From Campylobacter lari (GTDB lineage: Bacteria > Campylobacterota > Campylobacteria > Campylobacterales > Campylobacteraceae), in assembly GCF_004357905.1 (NCBI RefSeq), contig NZ_SMTT01000003.1:1-64000 (forward strand): DNA of 64,000 nt, read 5' to 3'. A model generated the notes under the pieces. That model was given only the letters and a program-made list of their open reading frames with translations. It did no database searches and was not told where the DNA came from. Positions 37,737-45,145 of this stretch are shown piece by piece. Position 1 is the stretch's first letter. Each line of letters starts with the position of its first letter. A program made the translations under genes and the position numbers.

Positions 37737-37750
37737 GCTAAATGGTTTTA
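37719..37750 (+). terminator. flgH terminator with stop codon in the loop
   Basis: ACCATTTGGC (37719-37728) pairs with GCTAAATGGT (37737-37746), ten pairs including one G-U, around a loop holding the flgH stop codon. TTTTA follows. Since murF ends at 37748 on the other strand, the element may also limit convergent transcription. Confidence 0.65.
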
Positions 37751-39148
37751 CATAAAACTTGGCGCATCATTGGAAAATAAAATCAAATCCCCATTTTGAG
37801 TTAATCTTGATAAAGTTTGCACAAGTTGAGATTTTTCTTTTAATACATAAAAATCTAATGTGATATGTTTTTGTAAAATCACGCTATTAGTCTCTGAAGT
37901 AATAATCACAAAATCAAAACATTCATTAATAATTTTACATAATTTTATATTTTCTTCTTCATTAACTTCAACTATACCAGGAGTTACTAAAACTCTTCTT
38001 CCTTGATAGCTTTTACAAAGCTCATAGCTTTGACTCATACCTTTAAAATTTCCATTAAAGCCATCATCTATGATAAATTTAGGCTCTTTAGAAATCACTT
38101 GCAAGCGATGTTCTACTGCCTTTAAATTCGATACGCTTTTTGTAATATTTTCTATTTTAATTCCTAAATAATGTGCAAGCAAAATACACACGCTAATATT
38201 ATAAGCATTAAAAGCACCTAGTAATTTTGCATGAAAATCATAAATACTATCATCTAATCTTATTTTAAAATCCAATCCTTCCAAACTTGCCCTAACATCA
38301 CTTAAATACTCATCATAAAATTCATTTTCATATAAGGTGCTTGAGTGTAAAAAGTATTTTTCTAAACGCTTGGATTTTAAAGCTTGCAACTTAGCTTTGC
38401 GGATATTATCTTGAGTTTTAAAATATTCCAAATGCGCCAAACCAATCTCACCTACTATGCAAATTTGAGGATTTAAAAACTCTGTAATTTCTAAAATATC
38501 ATTTTGCTCTCTTGCACCAGCTTCTACGATATAAATTTCAGTATTATTTTCCAAATTTTCATTGATATCTTTTACTATACCCATAAAAGTATTAACACTT
38601 CTTGGAGTCTTATAGCACTTAAACTCATCTTTTAAAAGTTCGTATAAAAAATTTTTTATACTTGTTTTTCCAAAACTTGCAGTTATTAGAATAATTTTTA
38701 AATTTGGATTATCGCAAATCTTTTTACTTGCTTTTTTTATAAAACTTTTCTGATTAATTTTTTCCACAAAAAAGCTTAATAAAAATGTAACTACTAAAGC
38801 TTCTAAACCTATCCAAAAAAATGGCATAAATATCAAGCTAAAAAGTAACAAAAATAAAAAATAACGCTTAATCCTAGCAGTAAAAACTAGCTTTTTATCT
38901 AAATTTTTATATAAATATCCACCATATAGTAAAGATAGAGCAAAAACTATAAAATATAAATAAAAATTTCCACTATACAAAGAAAACACAAAAGCAAAAT
39001 AAGGAATTATTAAAAAATACAAATGCCATAAAGGTTTGGGAAAGTGTAAAATTATGCGTGAAAATTTATAAGAATACCATTGTAAGGCTAAAATCAGATA
39101 AAATCCAAGTAAAAAATTCAAACTTAAAAAAGCTATCATACTAATCAT
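37748..39148 (-). CDS. murF: membrane-anchored MurF (D-Ala-D-Ala adding ligase)
   Basis: Adds D-Ala-D-Ala to UDP-MurNAc-tripeptide, the last cytoplasmic step of precursor synthesis. The Mur-ligase core starts near residue 150: P-loop-like ITASFGKTSIKNF (usual GSNGKTT altered), VEAGAREQNDI, GAFNAYNIS, VEHRLQ and DDGFNGNFKGM. The first ~140 residues are about five hydrophobic segments, in place of the usual soluble substrate-binding domain. Campylobacter MurF proteins share such a hydrophobic N-terminus as I recall. Start ATG at 39148 overlaps the hydrolase gene by 8 bases; ddl lies three genes upstream. Confidence 0.85.
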   Translation of the reverse strand: MISMIAFLSLNFLLGFYLILALQWYSYKFSRIILHFPKPLWHLYFLIIPYFAFVFSLYSGNFYLYFIVFALSLLYGGYLYKNLDKKLVFTARIKRYFLFLLLFSLIFMPFFWIGLEALVVTFLLSFFVEKINQKSFIKKASKKICDNPNLKIILITASFGKTSIKNFLYELLKDEFKCYKTPRSVNTFMGIVKDINENLENNTEIYIVEAGAREQNDILEITEFLNPQICIVGEIGLAHLEYFKTQDNIRKAKLQALKSKRLEKYFLHSSTLYENEFYDEYLSDVRASLEGLDFKIRLDDSIYDFHAKLLGAFNAYNISVCILLAHYLGIKIENITKSVSNLKAVEHRLQVISKEPKFIIDDGFNGNFKGMSQSYELCKSYQGRRVLVTPGIVEVNEEENIKLCKIINECFDFVIITSETNSVILQKHITLDFYVLKEKSQLVQTLSRLTQNGDLILFSNDAPSFM

Positions 39149-39884
39149 TTTTTAAAAATTCCTCATGTATTTTTTCATTTATAAAATCAGCATGTTTTAA
39201 AAAGAAAAAATGATCCCCATCTAATGCAAAAAATTTCCCTTTTTGTGCTAAAGAATGGATAATTGCTCCGCTTTTTAAAGGTGTAGCCTTATCTTCATTA
39301 CCCCAAAAAATCAAAATAGGATTTTTAAGCTTTTGAAATTCATTTTCTAAATTTTCATTAACAACCCTTTTAAAGGTTTCATACATCACTTCATTCATGC
39401 CTTGAGCGTCTTTACTAATAAAAAATTTCCTCCAAAAATCCCCATAAGGGAGATTTTTCAAAATTTTAAACAAGGCTATTTTAAACTTCACTTTAAAACT
39501 TTTTGGTAAAACTACGCCTGCACTAGAAAGCAAAATCAAACCTTGAAAATTAGCATTTTGGCACATAATAGTCGCAACTTTTCCGCCAAAAGAATGCCCC
39601 ATTAAATAATCTACTTTTTGCTCAATTGTAGTTAAAAAGTCTTCTACAACCTTTGCATAAGCATAAGAATCCATAGGTGCATCTATACTTGAATTTCCAA
39701 AACCAGGTAAATCTAAATAAATTTGCTTAAAATCGCTCAAAGGCTTTTCAAAAGCTTGTTTCATAAGCTCTTTATTAGCACCCCAACCATGCAAAACAAG
39801 AATTGTTTTTTCACATTTTGGATTGATGATTTCATAACTTAAATTATAAAAATACCCATTAGAATATACTCTAGTTTTTGCCAT
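39141..39884 (-). CDS. alpha/beta-fold hydrolase
   Basis: A 247-residue alpha/beta hydrolase: oxyanion motif LVLHGWGANKE, nucleophile elbow MGHSFGGK (Ser about 95), acid in IFWGNEDKATP and the catalytic His in DGDHFFFLKH. There is no signal peptide, so it acts in the cytoplasm. The substrate cannot be told from sequence. It sits between the murF and ddl genes with tiny gaps and no cell-wall link can be shown; BioH-like esterases and lactonases share this form. Confidence 0.75.
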   Translation of the reverse strand: MAKTRVYSNGYFYNLSYEIINPKCEKTILVLHGWGANKELMKQAFEKPLSDFKQIYLDLPGFGNSSIDAPMDSYAYAKVVEDFLTTIEQKVDYLMGHSFGGKVATIMCQNANFQGLILLSSAGVVLPKSFKVKFKIALFKILKNLPYGDFWRKFFISKDAQGMNEVMYETFKRVVNENLENEFQKLKNPILIFWGNEDKATPLKSGAIIHSLAQKGKFFALDGDHFFFLKHADFINEKIHEEFLKND

Positions 39885-39886
39885 TT

Positions 39887-40102
39887 CTAGCCTTTTTTAT
39901 CTTTGTAAATCTTTTCTAAAAGCATCACAGCTTCATTTAAACGCTCATATTCTTCAAAGTTCAAAAGTACAGCTTCAAATTTATTGTTTTTCACAATCAC
40001 CACTCTACCATTTTCACTTTTTTTTGTTTTTTCAAGCATAGTGCTGAAATTTCTTACCACTTCAGTTGCAGTATAAATTTCATCTTTGCTAAAAGTAGCC
40101 AT
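39887..40102 (-). CDS. orphan Phd/YefM-family antitoxin-like protein
   Basis: A 71-residue protein with the Phd/YefM pattern: YTATEVVRNFSTMLEK (DNA-binding N-terminal half), VVIVKNNKFEAVLLNFEEYERL, and a charged C-terminal helix. Such antitoxins repress their own operon and neutralise a RelE/YoeB or Doc toxin. No toxin gene is adjacent: ddl is 2 bases upstream and the hydrolase 2 bases downstream. It may be a domesticated DNA-binding regulator of the ddl-murF cluster; that is inference. Confidence 0.7.
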   Translation of the reverse strand: MATFSKDEIYTATEVVRNFSTMLEKTKKSENGRVVIVKNNKFEAVLLNFEEYERLNEAVMLLEKIYKDKKG

Positions 40103-40104
40103 GA

Positions 40105-41145
40105 TTATAGCTTACCTTTTTGTCCATTAATGCTGTGAATAAAAGCATAATCAATCTTAATTTGCTTTTCTAGTTCTATACTTTTTGCTAAATTATCAAC
40201 TGTATTAGTAAAATCTTCAAATAAATAATTTGCTAAAGATCCTGGATTTGGATTGATCTCATTTAAATAAACCTCATCATCTATCACAAAAAAATCACAG
40301 CGAATCAAAGCTCCTTTAAATAAAGGATTATAAATTCTCGTAAAATTATCCCTTAATTTTTGTTTTAATTCTTCACTAATATTTGCTTCACTTACTTTAG
40401 AACTTTCTGAAAAACCTAAATATTTTTGTTCAAAATCTAAAATTTCATTTTTTCTAGGCTCTTCAATAATAGAAAATTCCATTTTTTCATCTATCATACA
40501 ACCTGCTAAGTTATATTCTTTAATATTACTTACAAATTGTTCTATCACAACATCCTCATCAAATTCAAAAGCAACATCTTTGGCATACTTAAGCTCGCTT
40601 TCATCTTTAACTATGCTTATACCTATACTACTACCTAATCTTGCAGGCTTTAAAATACAAGGAAAATCCAAAGATACATTTTGCTCTTTATGCAAATTTA
40701 AAACCTTATAATCAAGTGTTTTCACCCCTACGCTTTGTGCATAAAGTTTAGTTAAAACCTTATTAAAAGATAAAACACTAGCTTCTATGCGTGGGCCTAT
40801 GTATTTTATACCATAAAAATCAAACAAAGCAGCTATTTTGCCATCTTCACCATCTTTTCCATGTATGATATTTATCGCTATATCAATGTCAAGTTTTTTC
40901 TCACCTAACATAGTTTTTATAAAAAACCCACCCTGCTTTAGCACCAAGGCTTTTTCTTTTTTATAAGCACCGCTGCTAAAAGTTTTTGCATTCATTTTTT
41001 CTTCATCTATAAGAAAAAATTCCTTATTTTTATCACAAAATATAAATTTTTTTTGTGCTTTGAGTACTTTTTTTAATACCACAGCACTTACAATGCTAAT
41101 TTCATGCTCATAAGAATTTGCGCCAAAAATTACACCATATATCAT
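40105..41145 (-). CDS. ddl: D-alanine--D-alanine ligase Ddl
   Basis: Makes the D-Ala-D-Ala dipeptide used by MurF. ATP-grasp enzyme of 346 residues: [16 protein letters not shown] (N-terminal Glu-His site), [36 protein letters not shown] and the C-terminal metal site [23 protein letters not shown] precedes the ATG. It heads a sub-cluster that ends with murF, consistent with a shared pathway. Confidence 0.95.
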
Positions 41146-41161
41146 TATATTTTTCCTTTTA

Positions 41162-41713
41162 TTATGCTAATTTTTTCAAAGCCTCTTTAATAAGCTCACT
41201 AGTATTTTTACTCTCACAAGTTCTTAAAACCTTTAAAATATTTTCTTGTTTAAAACCAAGTGAAAGTAAAGCTGCCAAAGCTTGTGCTTGGTCTTGATTA
41301 GAATTTTCTATATTGATTTTTGTATCACTTAACTCAGCTATAATTCTTTTTGCACTCTTTGGACCAATACCAGGAACTTTTTTAAATACACTCTCATCGC
41401 CACTTTGCAAAGCTGCATAAAAAGTATTAGTATCTAAGCTTGAGCAAAGTGCCATAGCAGTAGTTGCTCCTATACCACTAATTTTGATTAATAATTCAAA
41501 CATTTTTTGCTCATTTATATCTAAAAATCCATATAATTTATGAGAGTCTTCTTTGATAATTTGTGTGATTAAAAACTCAATCTTTTGATCTTTTTCAAAA
41601 TTACTTGAGCAAAAAAGCGAAACAAAAACACCATAACTTACCCCACTTGAAGTTTTCAAAACTACAAAAGTAGGTTCTTTTTTACTCACTATTCCTTCAA
41701 TTGCCACTATCAT
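41162..41713 (-). CDS. ruvA: Holliday junction helicase subunit RuvA
   Basis: Binds four-way junctions and loads RuvB. The 183-residue protein has the N-terminal OB domain ([20 protein letters not shown]), two HhH motifs ([13 protein letters not shown] and [16 protein letters not shown]) and the C-terminal RuvB-binding three-helix domain ([15 protein letters not shown]). It overlaps the FapA-like gene upstream by 4 bases. Confidence 0.95.
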
Positions 41714-43566
41714 TTAGTTTCTTCCTTGTAATTACTAATAGCACGAATTTCAAAAAGTTCCATCTCATTTTCTGTATTAATTTTTTGAAGCTCAAAACAT
41801 TGAATTTTTTCTTCATCATGAGGATAATAGCTTAATTCTTTTCTAGGATTTAACAAAATGAATTTAATTTCATTTAAATCCATCCATTTTCCACTTTTAT
41901 TAATAATCTTAGATTTTAAAAGTTTTTCTTGAATTTTCTTAAGCTTTTCCATATTTGCTTTTTCTTCTTCTTTTAAAGATTCTATTTTATTGGCAAAAAT
42001 ACTTAGATTTTCAATCTTTTGATTAAAATCTTTAATAGTAGCTTTATAAGCTTGCGGTATAGCTCTTTTTGCACTCATTAATTCTTTTACTTTTTGCTGT
42101 AAAATTCGTATGGAGTCTTTACTTATATTGATTGTGTGTTTAGTCTCTTCTATTTCTTTAACTAAATTTTCTTGTTCTTTTTTCAATCCATCAACATGTA
42201 TTAGTATCTCTTCTCCGCTTTTTTCTTCTCCAAAAGCTTTAAGATCTTGAATTATAAATTTATTTCCACTGCCTTGAATTTTTTCAACATGGATTAAACT
42301 TTTAGCACTACATAAACAATTTCCGCCGAGTTCTTGTATGTAAATTTCATCAGCAATAATCTCTCCGCCCATAGCCTTTTTAATATTTACTTTTTTAGCC
42401 TTGATAGAGCCATTTTCCAAAGTTTCAGCAAAAATCTCCTCAGCCTCACAATATCCTCTTAAGATATTAACCTCAACCTTTTGTCCTATAATAGTGCTTT
42501 TATGATGCATATTGCCTTTAAGAATTATCTTTTTACCTCTTAAAACAGAATCTTGAGCCATATTACCAATAACTTCTAATTCCTGAGCCTCAACAGTAAT
42601 TCTAGGACCTATTGCATCTTCTAGAGTGTTTGTATTTTTAATCACAATAATAACTTGCTTATCAAAACCCGCCCAAATAGAACCTGTACTTTTAAAATCA
42701 ACTTTACTAAATTCTAAATAATTTTCTATCTCATAAATGGATTTTCTTTGTATAATAAAACCATCTTTTTTAGCAATATATTTTATACTCTCATCATCTT
42801 CTTTAACTTCAAATTTATCAGAACAAACAACTTTTTCTTTATTTATTTTTGGTGGAAGTGCTTTTAAAATTTTAAATCTTAAATCCTTGCCATCGCTACC
42901 CTCTTTTGGCTTGATTCTCTCAATAGCCACCTCATCTTTTCCTATAGGTGCTACATAGTTTCTATTCATCACATCATTATACTTTTTTAGATTTTCTAAA
43001 TAATGATATTTTATTTCTTCATTTGTAGGCTCTTGCGGATTAATTCCTTTACATACTTCAAATTCAACTTCAAAATCAAATTTTTGCTTTTCTTTAACTT
43101 TAGTATTAAAATCAATAATTTGCTTTTTAAAATCAAAAATTCTAAACCCAAGCAAATATTTTTCTTTTATCATCGCTTTATAAATAGCTTCTAAAAGCTC
43201 TAGAGCTAATTTGTCATGAAAAGCAATAGTTTCACTAGCTCTAACGCTAGCTTTTAATAAAGTACAAAGCTCATTAGTATATAAACTAACTTCAAAAGTT
43301 GAAATGCGTGCAAATTTTTTAAAATAAATTTCTATTTTATATTCTTGTTCTATATTTAATTCATGATTTAAAAATTTCTCATCTTCTTCAAAAATTTTCA
43401 ACTCTTTTTCATTAACTTTTATCCATTCTTGATTATCATAAGTATAAGAAGTACTAAAACTTAACAACCTAAAATCAAGTTCATCAACTTCACATTTATT
43501 TTCAGAAGCAAATATTAAAAGCTCTCTATAAGGGTCTTTAGTGTATAAAATTTTCTTTTCTTCCAT
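41710..43566 (-). CDS. FapA-like (DUF342) protein
   Basis: A 618-residue cytoplasmic protein. The N-terminal ~180 residues are Lys/Glu-rich without a known domain. The middle (about 210-460) resembles the FapA/DUF342 beta-helix family: IEVVGNMAQDS-like turns (seen as [18 protein letters not shown]), [10 protein letters not shown] and [16 protein letters not shown] repeats typical of stacked beta rungs. A coiled coil follows (about 470-570). In Vibrio FapA affects polar flagellar assembly and localisation; in Campylobacter the role is not established. It leads the ruvA-ddl-murF unit. Confidence 0.7.
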
Positions 43567-43591
43567 AGCTTAAGCTTCCTTATTATATATA

Positions 43592-43626
43592 AAATTTTGA
43601 TTTTAGCAAAAATAAAATCAAAATTT
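43592..43626. repeat. 14-bp perfect inverted repeat between divergent genes
   Basis: AAATTTTGATTTTA (43592-43605), spacer GCAAAAA, TAAAATCAAAATTT (43613-43626). It sits in the 124-base gap between the FapA-like gene (minus) and murJ (plus), upstream of both, so it is not a terminator for either. A regulator-binding dyad acting on both promoters is the simplest reading. Confidence 0.65.
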
Positions 43627-43653
43627 AGTTAAAATTAGCTCTATTAAAAATTT

Positions 43654-43659
43654 TATAAT
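43654..43659 (+). promoter_or_regulatory. putative -10 of murJ
   Basis: TATAAT 31 bases upstream of the murJ ATG, within a T- and A-rich tract. A minus-strand TATAAT (43582-43587) near the FapA-like gene is its probable divergent counterpart, though it lies close to that start. Confidence 0.5.
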
Positions 43660-43690
43660 ACTCAAACTAATATTTAAAGAATGAAAATTA

Positions 43691-45145
43691 ATGAGAAAAA
43701 ATATTGTTTTTAAAAATTTCATCATCAATGCCTTAGGAATTTTATTTTCTAGGATTATGGGCGTTTTAAGAGATATTGTTTTAGCTTTATATTTAGGAGC
43801 TGGAATTTATAGCGATATTTTCTTTGTGGCTTTAAAAATGCCTGCTTTTTTTAGAAGAATTTTTGCAGAAGGGGCCTTTGGACAAGCTTTTTTACCAAGT
43901 TTTTTAAAAGCAAGTAAAAAAGGTGCTTTTTGTATAAATGTTTTATTGCAATTTAGTATTATAGTGTTTTTAACCTGTATTTTAGTGAGTTTTTTTGCTG
44001 AATTTTTTACAAAGATTTTTGCTTTTGGCTTTAATAAAGAAACAATTATCTTGGCTGCGCCTTTGGTTTCTATTAATTTTTGGTATTTGTTTTTTATTTT
44101 TTTGGTAACTTTTTTAGGCTCTTTATTAAATTATAAACAAAATTTTTTCATCACTTCTTTTTCTGCTTCATTTTTTAATCTTTTTGTTGTGATTGCAGGT
44201 TTTTTTGTCAATCAAGATGAGCCTTTAGAGGCCTTGTATTATTTTTCATATGCGACTGTCTTAAGTGGTTTAGCTCAACTTATATGGCATATTTTTGCTT
44301 TAAAAAATACTAGAATTTTAAAAAGCATGTATTTAAGCATAAAACTTAAAAAAACAAAGACTAGTTTAGATAAATTTCATTCTACTTTTACCCATGGACT
44401 TTTAGGCTCTTCGGCAAATCAAATTAGTTCATTATTAGATACTACTATAGCTAGTTTTTTAATGGCTGGAAGTATTTCGTATTTGTATTATTCTAACAGA
44501 GTTTTTCAGCTTCCTTTAGCTCTTTTTGCAATCGCTCTAAGTCAAGTAAGCTTTCCAAAAATACTAAGACATTTAAAAGCAAATGAAGAACAAAAAGCCT
44601 TAGCTTTTATGCAAAAAGCTTTTGAATATTTAAGTGTGCTTTTGATTTTAGCTAGTATAGTTGGGATTATCTTAGCTAAAGAAATTGTGGAGTTTTTATT
44701 TCAAAGAGGAAATTTTAATCAAGAAGATACAAAAATCACTGCATTTTTATTACAAGCTTATCTTTTAGGACTTTTACCTTTTGGTTTGCAAAAACTTTTC
44801 TCTTTGTGGCTTTATGCTAAATTTAAACAAAAAATAGCCGCTGTAATCGCCTTTAAAACACTTTTTATATCAGCATTTTTTAGCGTAGCGATTATTTTAC
44901 TTATCAAAGAAGAAACTTATAAGAGCTTAGGCATTGCATTAGCTTCATCTATTAGTGCTTTTTATTTATTATATGCTAATATTAAAGAATTTGGCTTTAA
45001 AAATCTTTGGGGTATTTTTAGGGTTAAATTTTGGCTTATTAGTATAGTATTTTTAAGTTTATTTGCTCTAGGCTTATTTGAAATTAAAGATATTTTAATA
45101 CAATTTTTAATTGGAATTTATCATTTTTTTAAAGGTTTATTTTAA
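43691..45145 (+). CDS. murJ: lipid II flippase MurJ
   Basis: A 484-residue MOP-superfamily transporter with about 13-14 membrane helices. The family signatures are SRIMGVLRDIVLALYLGAG near the N-terminus, RRIFAEGAFGQAFLPSF, and PLALFAIALSQVSFPKI with the FQRGNF stretch after helix 8. It flips lipid II to the periplasm, directly following the Ddl/MurF steps encoded by the divergent cluster. It overlaps cysS by one base (TAATG). Confidence 0.95.
   Translation: MRKNIVFKNFIINALGILFSRIMGVLRDIVLALYLGAGIYSDIFFVALKMPAFFRRIFAEGAFGQAFLPSFLKASKKGAFCINVLLQFSIIVFLTCILVSFFAEFFTKIFAFGFNKETIILAAPLVSINFWYLFFIFLVTFLGSLLNYKQNFFITSFSASFFNLFVVIAGFFVNQDEPLEALYYFSYATVLSGLAQLIWHIFALKNTRILKSMYLSIKLKKTKTSLDKFHSTFTHGLLGSSANQISSLLDTTIASFLMAGSISYLYYSNRVFQLPLALFAIALSQVSFPKILRHLKANEEQKALAFMQKAFEYLSVLLILASIVGIILAKEIVEFLFQRGNFNQEDTKITAFLLQAYLLGLLPFGLQKLFSLWLYAKFKQKIAAVIAFKTLFISAFFSVAIILLIKEETYKSLGIALASSISAFYLLYANIKEFGFKNLWGIFRVKFWLISIVFLSLFALGLFEIKDILIQFLIGIYHFFKGLF

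Follow-up and report, generated by a model that had tools for sequence, protein, structure and literature searches.

Organization of the murF gene

The window analyzed here is a stretch of 64,000 nucleotides from Campylobacter lari (assembly GCF_004357905.1, contig NZ_SMTT01000003.1, positions 1 to 64,000). On its minus strand lies murF. MurF is the ligase that uses adenosine triphosphate (ATP) to join D-alanyl-D-alanine (D-Ala-D-Ala) to the tripeptide form of N-acetylmuramic acid (MurNAc). In the MurF encoded here, a predicted membrane domain stands where other MurF enzymes have a soluble domain binding uridine diphosphate (UDP). The parts of the gene are as follows; residues are those of the product.

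37748..39148, minus strand: murF coding sequence, membrane-type MurF of 466 amino acids, ATG start (open reading frame and translation; TIGR01143, E 1.2e-40; order-wide homologues)
38702..39148, minus strand: N-terminal membrane domain, residues 1-149, at the position of the UDP-binding domain (own profile in 394/397 genomes; model with a predicted local distance difference test score, pLDDT, of 93.4)
39077..39145, minus strand: predicted transmembrane helix 1, residues 2-24 (hydropathy and AlphaFold, as for helices 2 to 5)
39056..39082, minus strand: conserved loop QWYSYKFSR, residues 23-31, with Q23, W24, Y27 and R31 invariant (family alignment)
38972..39031, minus strand: predicted transmembrane helix 2, residues 40-59
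38903..38962, minus strand: predicted transmembrane helix 3, residues 63-82, with a break at 76-77
38864..38899, minus strand: conserved basic loop DKKLVFTARIKR, residues 84-95, with D84 and T90 invariant (family alignment)
38810..38878, minus strand: predicted transmembrane helix 4, residues 91-113
38714..38803, minus strand: predicted transmembrane helix 5, continuing as a linker, residues 116-145
38177..38686, minus strand: Mur ligase middle (ATPase) domain, residues 155-324 (Pfam PF08245, E 7.8e-20)
38660..38683, minus strand: P-loop TASFGKTS, residues 156-163 (translation; alignments of relatives)
38048..38068, minus strand: DDGFNGN motif, residues 361-367, counterpart of MurF DDxYNAN (alignment to solved MurF; near-invariant in relatives)
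37775..38110, minus strand: Mur ligase C-terminal domain, residues 347-458 (PF02875, E 1e-4, below cut-off; TIGR01143 match to residue 458; fold match to MurF)

The Mur-ligase core

The core spans residues 155-458, and its top curated family is MurF (NCBIfam TIGR01143). Among the NCBIfam profiles the product scores 139.7 bits with murF, 65.5 with murE and 52.6 with murD, and all 68 aligned members of the membrane-type MurF match TIGR01143. The closest solved structures by sequence are MurF enzymes, and a fold search with the AlphaFold model of the whole product (pLDDT 90.9, predicted template modelling score 0.85) ranks MurF first. The match to TIGR01143 begins only at profile position 61, leaving positions 1-60 unmatched, which indicates that the canonical UDP-binding domain is missing. 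Pfam PF01225 is not detected in the murF product either. On its own this second test is a weak one, because in the C. lari genome PF01225 reaches MurC only and also misses MurE and MurD; the missing domain therefore rests on the TIGR01143 result.

K161, T162, E209, H239, K253, N317, R348 and D361 are invariant and align with the known Mur catalytic set, the roles of these positions (including that of the carbamylated lysine) being those we take from established knowledge of Mur ligases. The preliminary description of this DNA, made from the sequence before any search, had called the P-loop altered. Its letters are TASFGKTS as given there, and the departure turns out to be mild and shared by the family: among 80 named loci, TASYGKTS occurs in 43, TASFGKTS in 18, TGSYGKTS in 17 and TGSFGKTS in one. 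The pattern is T[AG]S[FY]GKTS with GKTS kept by all, and TGSYGKTS resembles TGSSGKTT of Thermotoga maritima MurF. Since the difference is family-wide and the catalytic GKT/S is retained, it is, as judged from these alignments, a mild family drift giving no hint of altered chemistry. The middle domain has PRS (R183) where solved MurF enzymes show PGN or similar, with R183 replaced by K in some Helicobacteraceae-like genomes. It also has an invariant, family-specific arginine, R213.

The genome, with an estimated completeness of 100%, has five Mur-ligase middle domains. By their sequences and neighbours they were assigned to the membrane MurF, MurE, MurD (adjoining mraY), MurC and FolC. A second, canonical MurF, whose presence would have undercut the preliminary description, was thus looked for by the middle-domain search and rejected, as none occurs in the genome. 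As a separate observation, MurE (L001, 1312-2595) has a short N-terminal part with its P-loop near residue 66, and its UDP-binding domain looks reduced too.

The N-terminal membrane domain

Residues 1-127 rank second in hydrophobicity among the N-termini of the 60 open reading frames of at least 150 amino acids in the window, on a par with MurJ. Five membrane helices are modelled within residues 1-145 (AlphaFold mean pLDDT 91-93), and family-averaged hydropathy agrees. Basic loops occur at residues 22-44 and 79-96, and another basic stretch lies ahead of the core. By the positive-inside rule these loops indicate five spans, with the N-terminus outside and the core cytoplasmic; both topology and fold are predictions of the model. 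The preliminary description had placed hydrophobic segments ahead of the ligase core in lieu of the soluble UDP-binding domain, had put MurF at the membrane and had called for a topology prediction. The five modelled helices and the unmatched N-terminal part of TIGR01143 bear out the first point, while sequence, conservation and structure prediction support the second, in agreement with statements on Helicobacter pylori (PMC9448923).

Conservation is concentrated in the loops. Loop 79-96 has a mean conservation of 0.78, against 0.38-0.47 for the helices, and Y17, Q23, W24, Y27, R31, P49, D84 and T90 are invariant in the 68 aligned members, with a few exceptions for D84 among more distant genomes. 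The domain occurs once in the genome. A Pfam search with it gave no family above cut-off, and Tap-RNA_bind, DUF4229 and Na_H_Exchanger were rejected as sub-threshold, scattered matches. Sequence and fold searches of the PDB found no convincing relative, and a tblastn search of plasmids found no match.

Distribution and inheritance

The genome sample is from one order, Campylobacterales, and for the N-terminal domain profile comprises 397 genomes of 13 families and 68 genera; the contig scan for relatives took the best 80 matches. A profile of the N-terminal domain only is present in 394 of the 397 genomes, and the full-length protein is matched in 249 of 249 (E <= 0.001), the match in G050 being weak. 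The three genomes without the domain (G050, G313 and G355) were considered for replacement by a canonical MurF. This was rejected, since they have no MurF core and only other Mur ligases; the finding of no MurF at all suggests assembly gaps. The MurF protein tree follows the family taxonomy, and the families separate on it with 12 changes, the fewest possible, which argues for vertical inheritance. The membrane MurF is the normal, vertically inherited MurF of Campylobacterales and not a peculiarity of this C. lari genome.

These data also bear on whether the hydrophobic stretch might be an artefact of annotation or assembly, i.e., an internal true start or a strain-specific fusion. Only the unusual architecture speaks for this. 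It is contradicted by the presence of the domain in 394 of 397 genomes, by the high-confidence fold and by the start of murF, which in many genera overlaps the stop of the upstream estV-type gene by 4-8 bases or abuts it. An internal start, which the preliminary description had named as a possible objection, is thus rejected, and the artefact is scarcely credible.

Two members of the family are odd in themselves. In G210, of the same family as C. lari, murF (L172, 574-2352) encodes 592 amino acids with an acidic low-complexity insertion of ~100 residues within the core. In the one-contig genome G008 the sole murF (L076, 2489-3928) consists of two broken frames with several stops, which is odd for an essential gene and likely a sequencing error or frameshift.

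Comparison with known Mur ligases

The membrane form of MurF is not new in kind. It is known in part from H. pylori, for which a 2022 paper terms MurF an inner-membrane protein (PMC9448923) and, citing Blair et al. 2018, reports four N-terminal transmembrane domains. H. pylori belongs to the same order, and its MurF (HP0740) is thus likewise described with an N-terminal transmembrane domain joined to a MurF core. The length listed for HP0740, 1485 bp (PMC6501431), is near that of the 493-residue reading frames of Helicobacteraceae-like genomes (family f2), which share all motifs. Csd5, CcmA and Csd7 are reported to be purified along with MurF from H. pylori (PMC9507126, PMC9448923), and a Csd5-MurF-CcmA complex is described (PMC9507126). 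In the literature searched, neither the lack of the UDP-binding domain nor its order-wide extent, the conserved ddl-estV-murF cluster or the consequence for the substrate is described, though Blair et al. 2018 may treat some of these points.

Soluble MurF enzymes (T. maritima 3zl8, Acinetobacter baumannii 4qf5, Pseudomonas aeruginosa 4cvk) share with C. lari MurF the middle and C-terminal domains, the catalytic residues and the DDxxN.N motif. They differ in having a UDP-binding N-terminal domain instead of a membrane domain, and C. lari MurF is set apart further by the P-loop T[AG]S[FY]GKTS, by PRS at the site of the PGN-type residues, and by R213. Another relative is MurT of the MurT/GatD complex, which amidates lipid II. 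It also has a Mur-ligase core without the UDP-binding domain and works at the membrane (PMC6113224, PMC6085368). However, MurT has a truncated, flexible N-terminus and no membrane domain, carries a zinc ribbon, acts with its partner GatD and amidates D-Glu. The MurT profile NF052464 matches the membrane MurF below cut-off, at 21 bits (cut-off 800, E 1.2e-4).

Substrate binding and alternative interpretations

In standard Mur ligases an N-terminal domain of ~90 residues binds the UDP end of the substrate (PMC6113224). In an ancestor of Campylobacterales this soluble domain was probably exchanged for the five-helix membrane domain, which would have its N-terminus outside and its loops, like the ligase core, in the cytoplasm. 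The chemistry would be that of other Mur ligases, with ATP bound at the P-loop, formation of an acyl-phosphate and then attack by D-Ala-D-Ala, and can be assumed because the core is intact. The basic loops QWYSYK..R and DKKLVFTxRVKR, together with R183 and R213, probably bind the diphosphate end of UDP-MurNAc-tripeptide. The last precursor step would then take place at the surface of the membrane, at which MraY picks up its product. The preliminary description had proposed substrate channelling beside MraY and MurJ; channelling to MraY would be plausible. We give a probability of about 0.72 to the reading that this protein is the sole MurF, that its UDP-binding domain has been replaced by the five-helix domain and that it acts at the membrane on UDP-MurNAc-tripeptide. 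Within it, the location of MurF at the membrane and the loss of the soluble UDP-binding domain are well supported by sequence and structure prediction.

Several points weigh against this reading. How the membrane MurF holds its substrate, including the binding of UDP by the N-terminal domain, is something we infer. The same is true of its activity as a D-Ala-D-Ala ligase, which we deduce from the intact core and the sole-copy status. The TIGR01143 score of 139.7 bits is below the cut-off of 288.6, as are the scores in related genomes tested, although this is expected with the N-terminal domain missing. The account cited above gives four transmembrane domains for H. pylori MurF, as opposed to five in the C. 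lari model. Finally, going by locus names, mraY and murD presumably stand beside murF in the flux-model-only list of a C. jejuni transposon survey, and because they share that list we read the listing of murF as noise. The listed murF, cj0795c, is essential by the flux model only, i.e., inserts were recovered (PMC3229698).

A different substrate would be undecaprenyl-pyrophosphate-MurNAc-tripeptide, or its form with N-acetylglucosamine. MurF would then act after MraY, the order of the two being swapped, and the membrane domain would recognize lipid and pyrophosphate. The absence of the UDP-binding domain and the invariant basic cytoplasmic loops ahead of the core fit this. So does MurT, the one described ligase of Mur type found here that also lacks that domain: it uses lipid I/II and no soluble UDP precursors (PMC6085368), and its authors argue that such a domain would collide with the membrane (PMC6113224). 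But MraY would have to accept the tripeptide nucleotide, and the MraY of C. lari is unremarkable within its family, scoring well above the cut-off. In one paper the UDP precursor is given as the substrate of the C. jejuni enzyme, apparently on the strength of annotation, and the literature searched yielded neither biochemical nor precursor-pool data for Campylobacterales. We hold UDP-MurNAc-tripeptide to be the likelier substrate because no change in MraY is needed, and consider the swapped order improbable. It is equally doubtful that Campylobacterales add D-Ala-D-Ala to a lipid-linked intermediate by means of a membrane domain whose fold is unseen among solved structures. The membrane domain might also be a mere anchor or scaffold to shape and elongation complexes (bactofilin, MreB, MraY), with the core binding the substrate by itself. 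The co-purification of H. pylori MurF with Csd5, CcmA and Csd7 is in its favour, as is the one above-cut-off bactofilin of the C. lari genome, encoded downstream of an M23 peptidase gene. Against it, the polar loop residues are better conserved than the helices, the coverage of 13 families suggests a role beyond docking, and Csd5 is said to occur in Helicobacter only (PMC9507126). We regard a mere anchor as quite unlikely.

The membrane form of MurF has practical consequences. Peptidoglycan synthesis depends on MurF as an essential enzyme, and its study as a drug target has been made on soluble forms. Inhibitors dependent on the UDP-binding domain need not work in Campylobacterales, to which Campylobacter and Helicobacter belong, and recombinant work has to be done with the full-length protein, kept in membranes or detergent. 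Whether recognition of the substrate has shifted to the loops of the membrane domain or to a substrate linked to lipid becomes testable. The membrane domain also offers a physical basis for the reported link of MurF to the cell-shape complexes of H. pylori.

Gene neighbourhood

Four genes lie upstream of murF on the same strand (an estV-type hydrolase gene, ddl, ruvA and one resembling fapA), and beyond them murJ is divergent. Three of these genes are described below.

39141..39884, minus strand: estV-type alpha/beta hydrolase, its coding sequence sharing 8 nt with the start of murF (NCBIfam NF058580, above cut-off)
40105..41145, minus strand: ddl, the D-Ala-D-Ala ligase making the MurF co-substrate (NF002527 and TIGR01205, above cut-off; synteny)
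43691..45145, plus strand: murJ, lipid II flippase gene, divergent (name from the preliminary description and a multi-span reading frame; homologue near the cluster in relatives)

The gene order fapA-ruvA-ddl-estV-murF, with a divergent murJ ahead of fapA (39141-45145 in the window; loci L041-L160 in relatives), is conserved across Campylobacterales. Among 106 loci with sufficient upstream sequence, estV is found in 97 and ddl in 82, and many extend to ruvA, fapA and murJ. Because of this conservation, a gene for making D-Ala-D-Ala and a flippase gene are linked to the membrane MurF across the order. In C. lari murJ is 4.5 kb from murF, a neighbour relation kept in many relatives, and mraY is on another contig (C6), adjoining murD. 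The near-constant adjacency of estV to murF suggests a functional link that the lipase annotation does not explain. Most estV-murF pairs overlap or abut. A gap of ~250-330 nt is found in L110, L121, L122, L125, L127, L128, L131, L138 and L144, several of which are from Sulfurospirillum or relatives, leaving room for a small extra gene. Elsewhere in the genome, the bactofilin gene lies just downstream of the M23 peptidase gene (L005, 1375-3442; G000:C1:62404-62691), an arrangement resembling csd1-ccmA of H. pylori.
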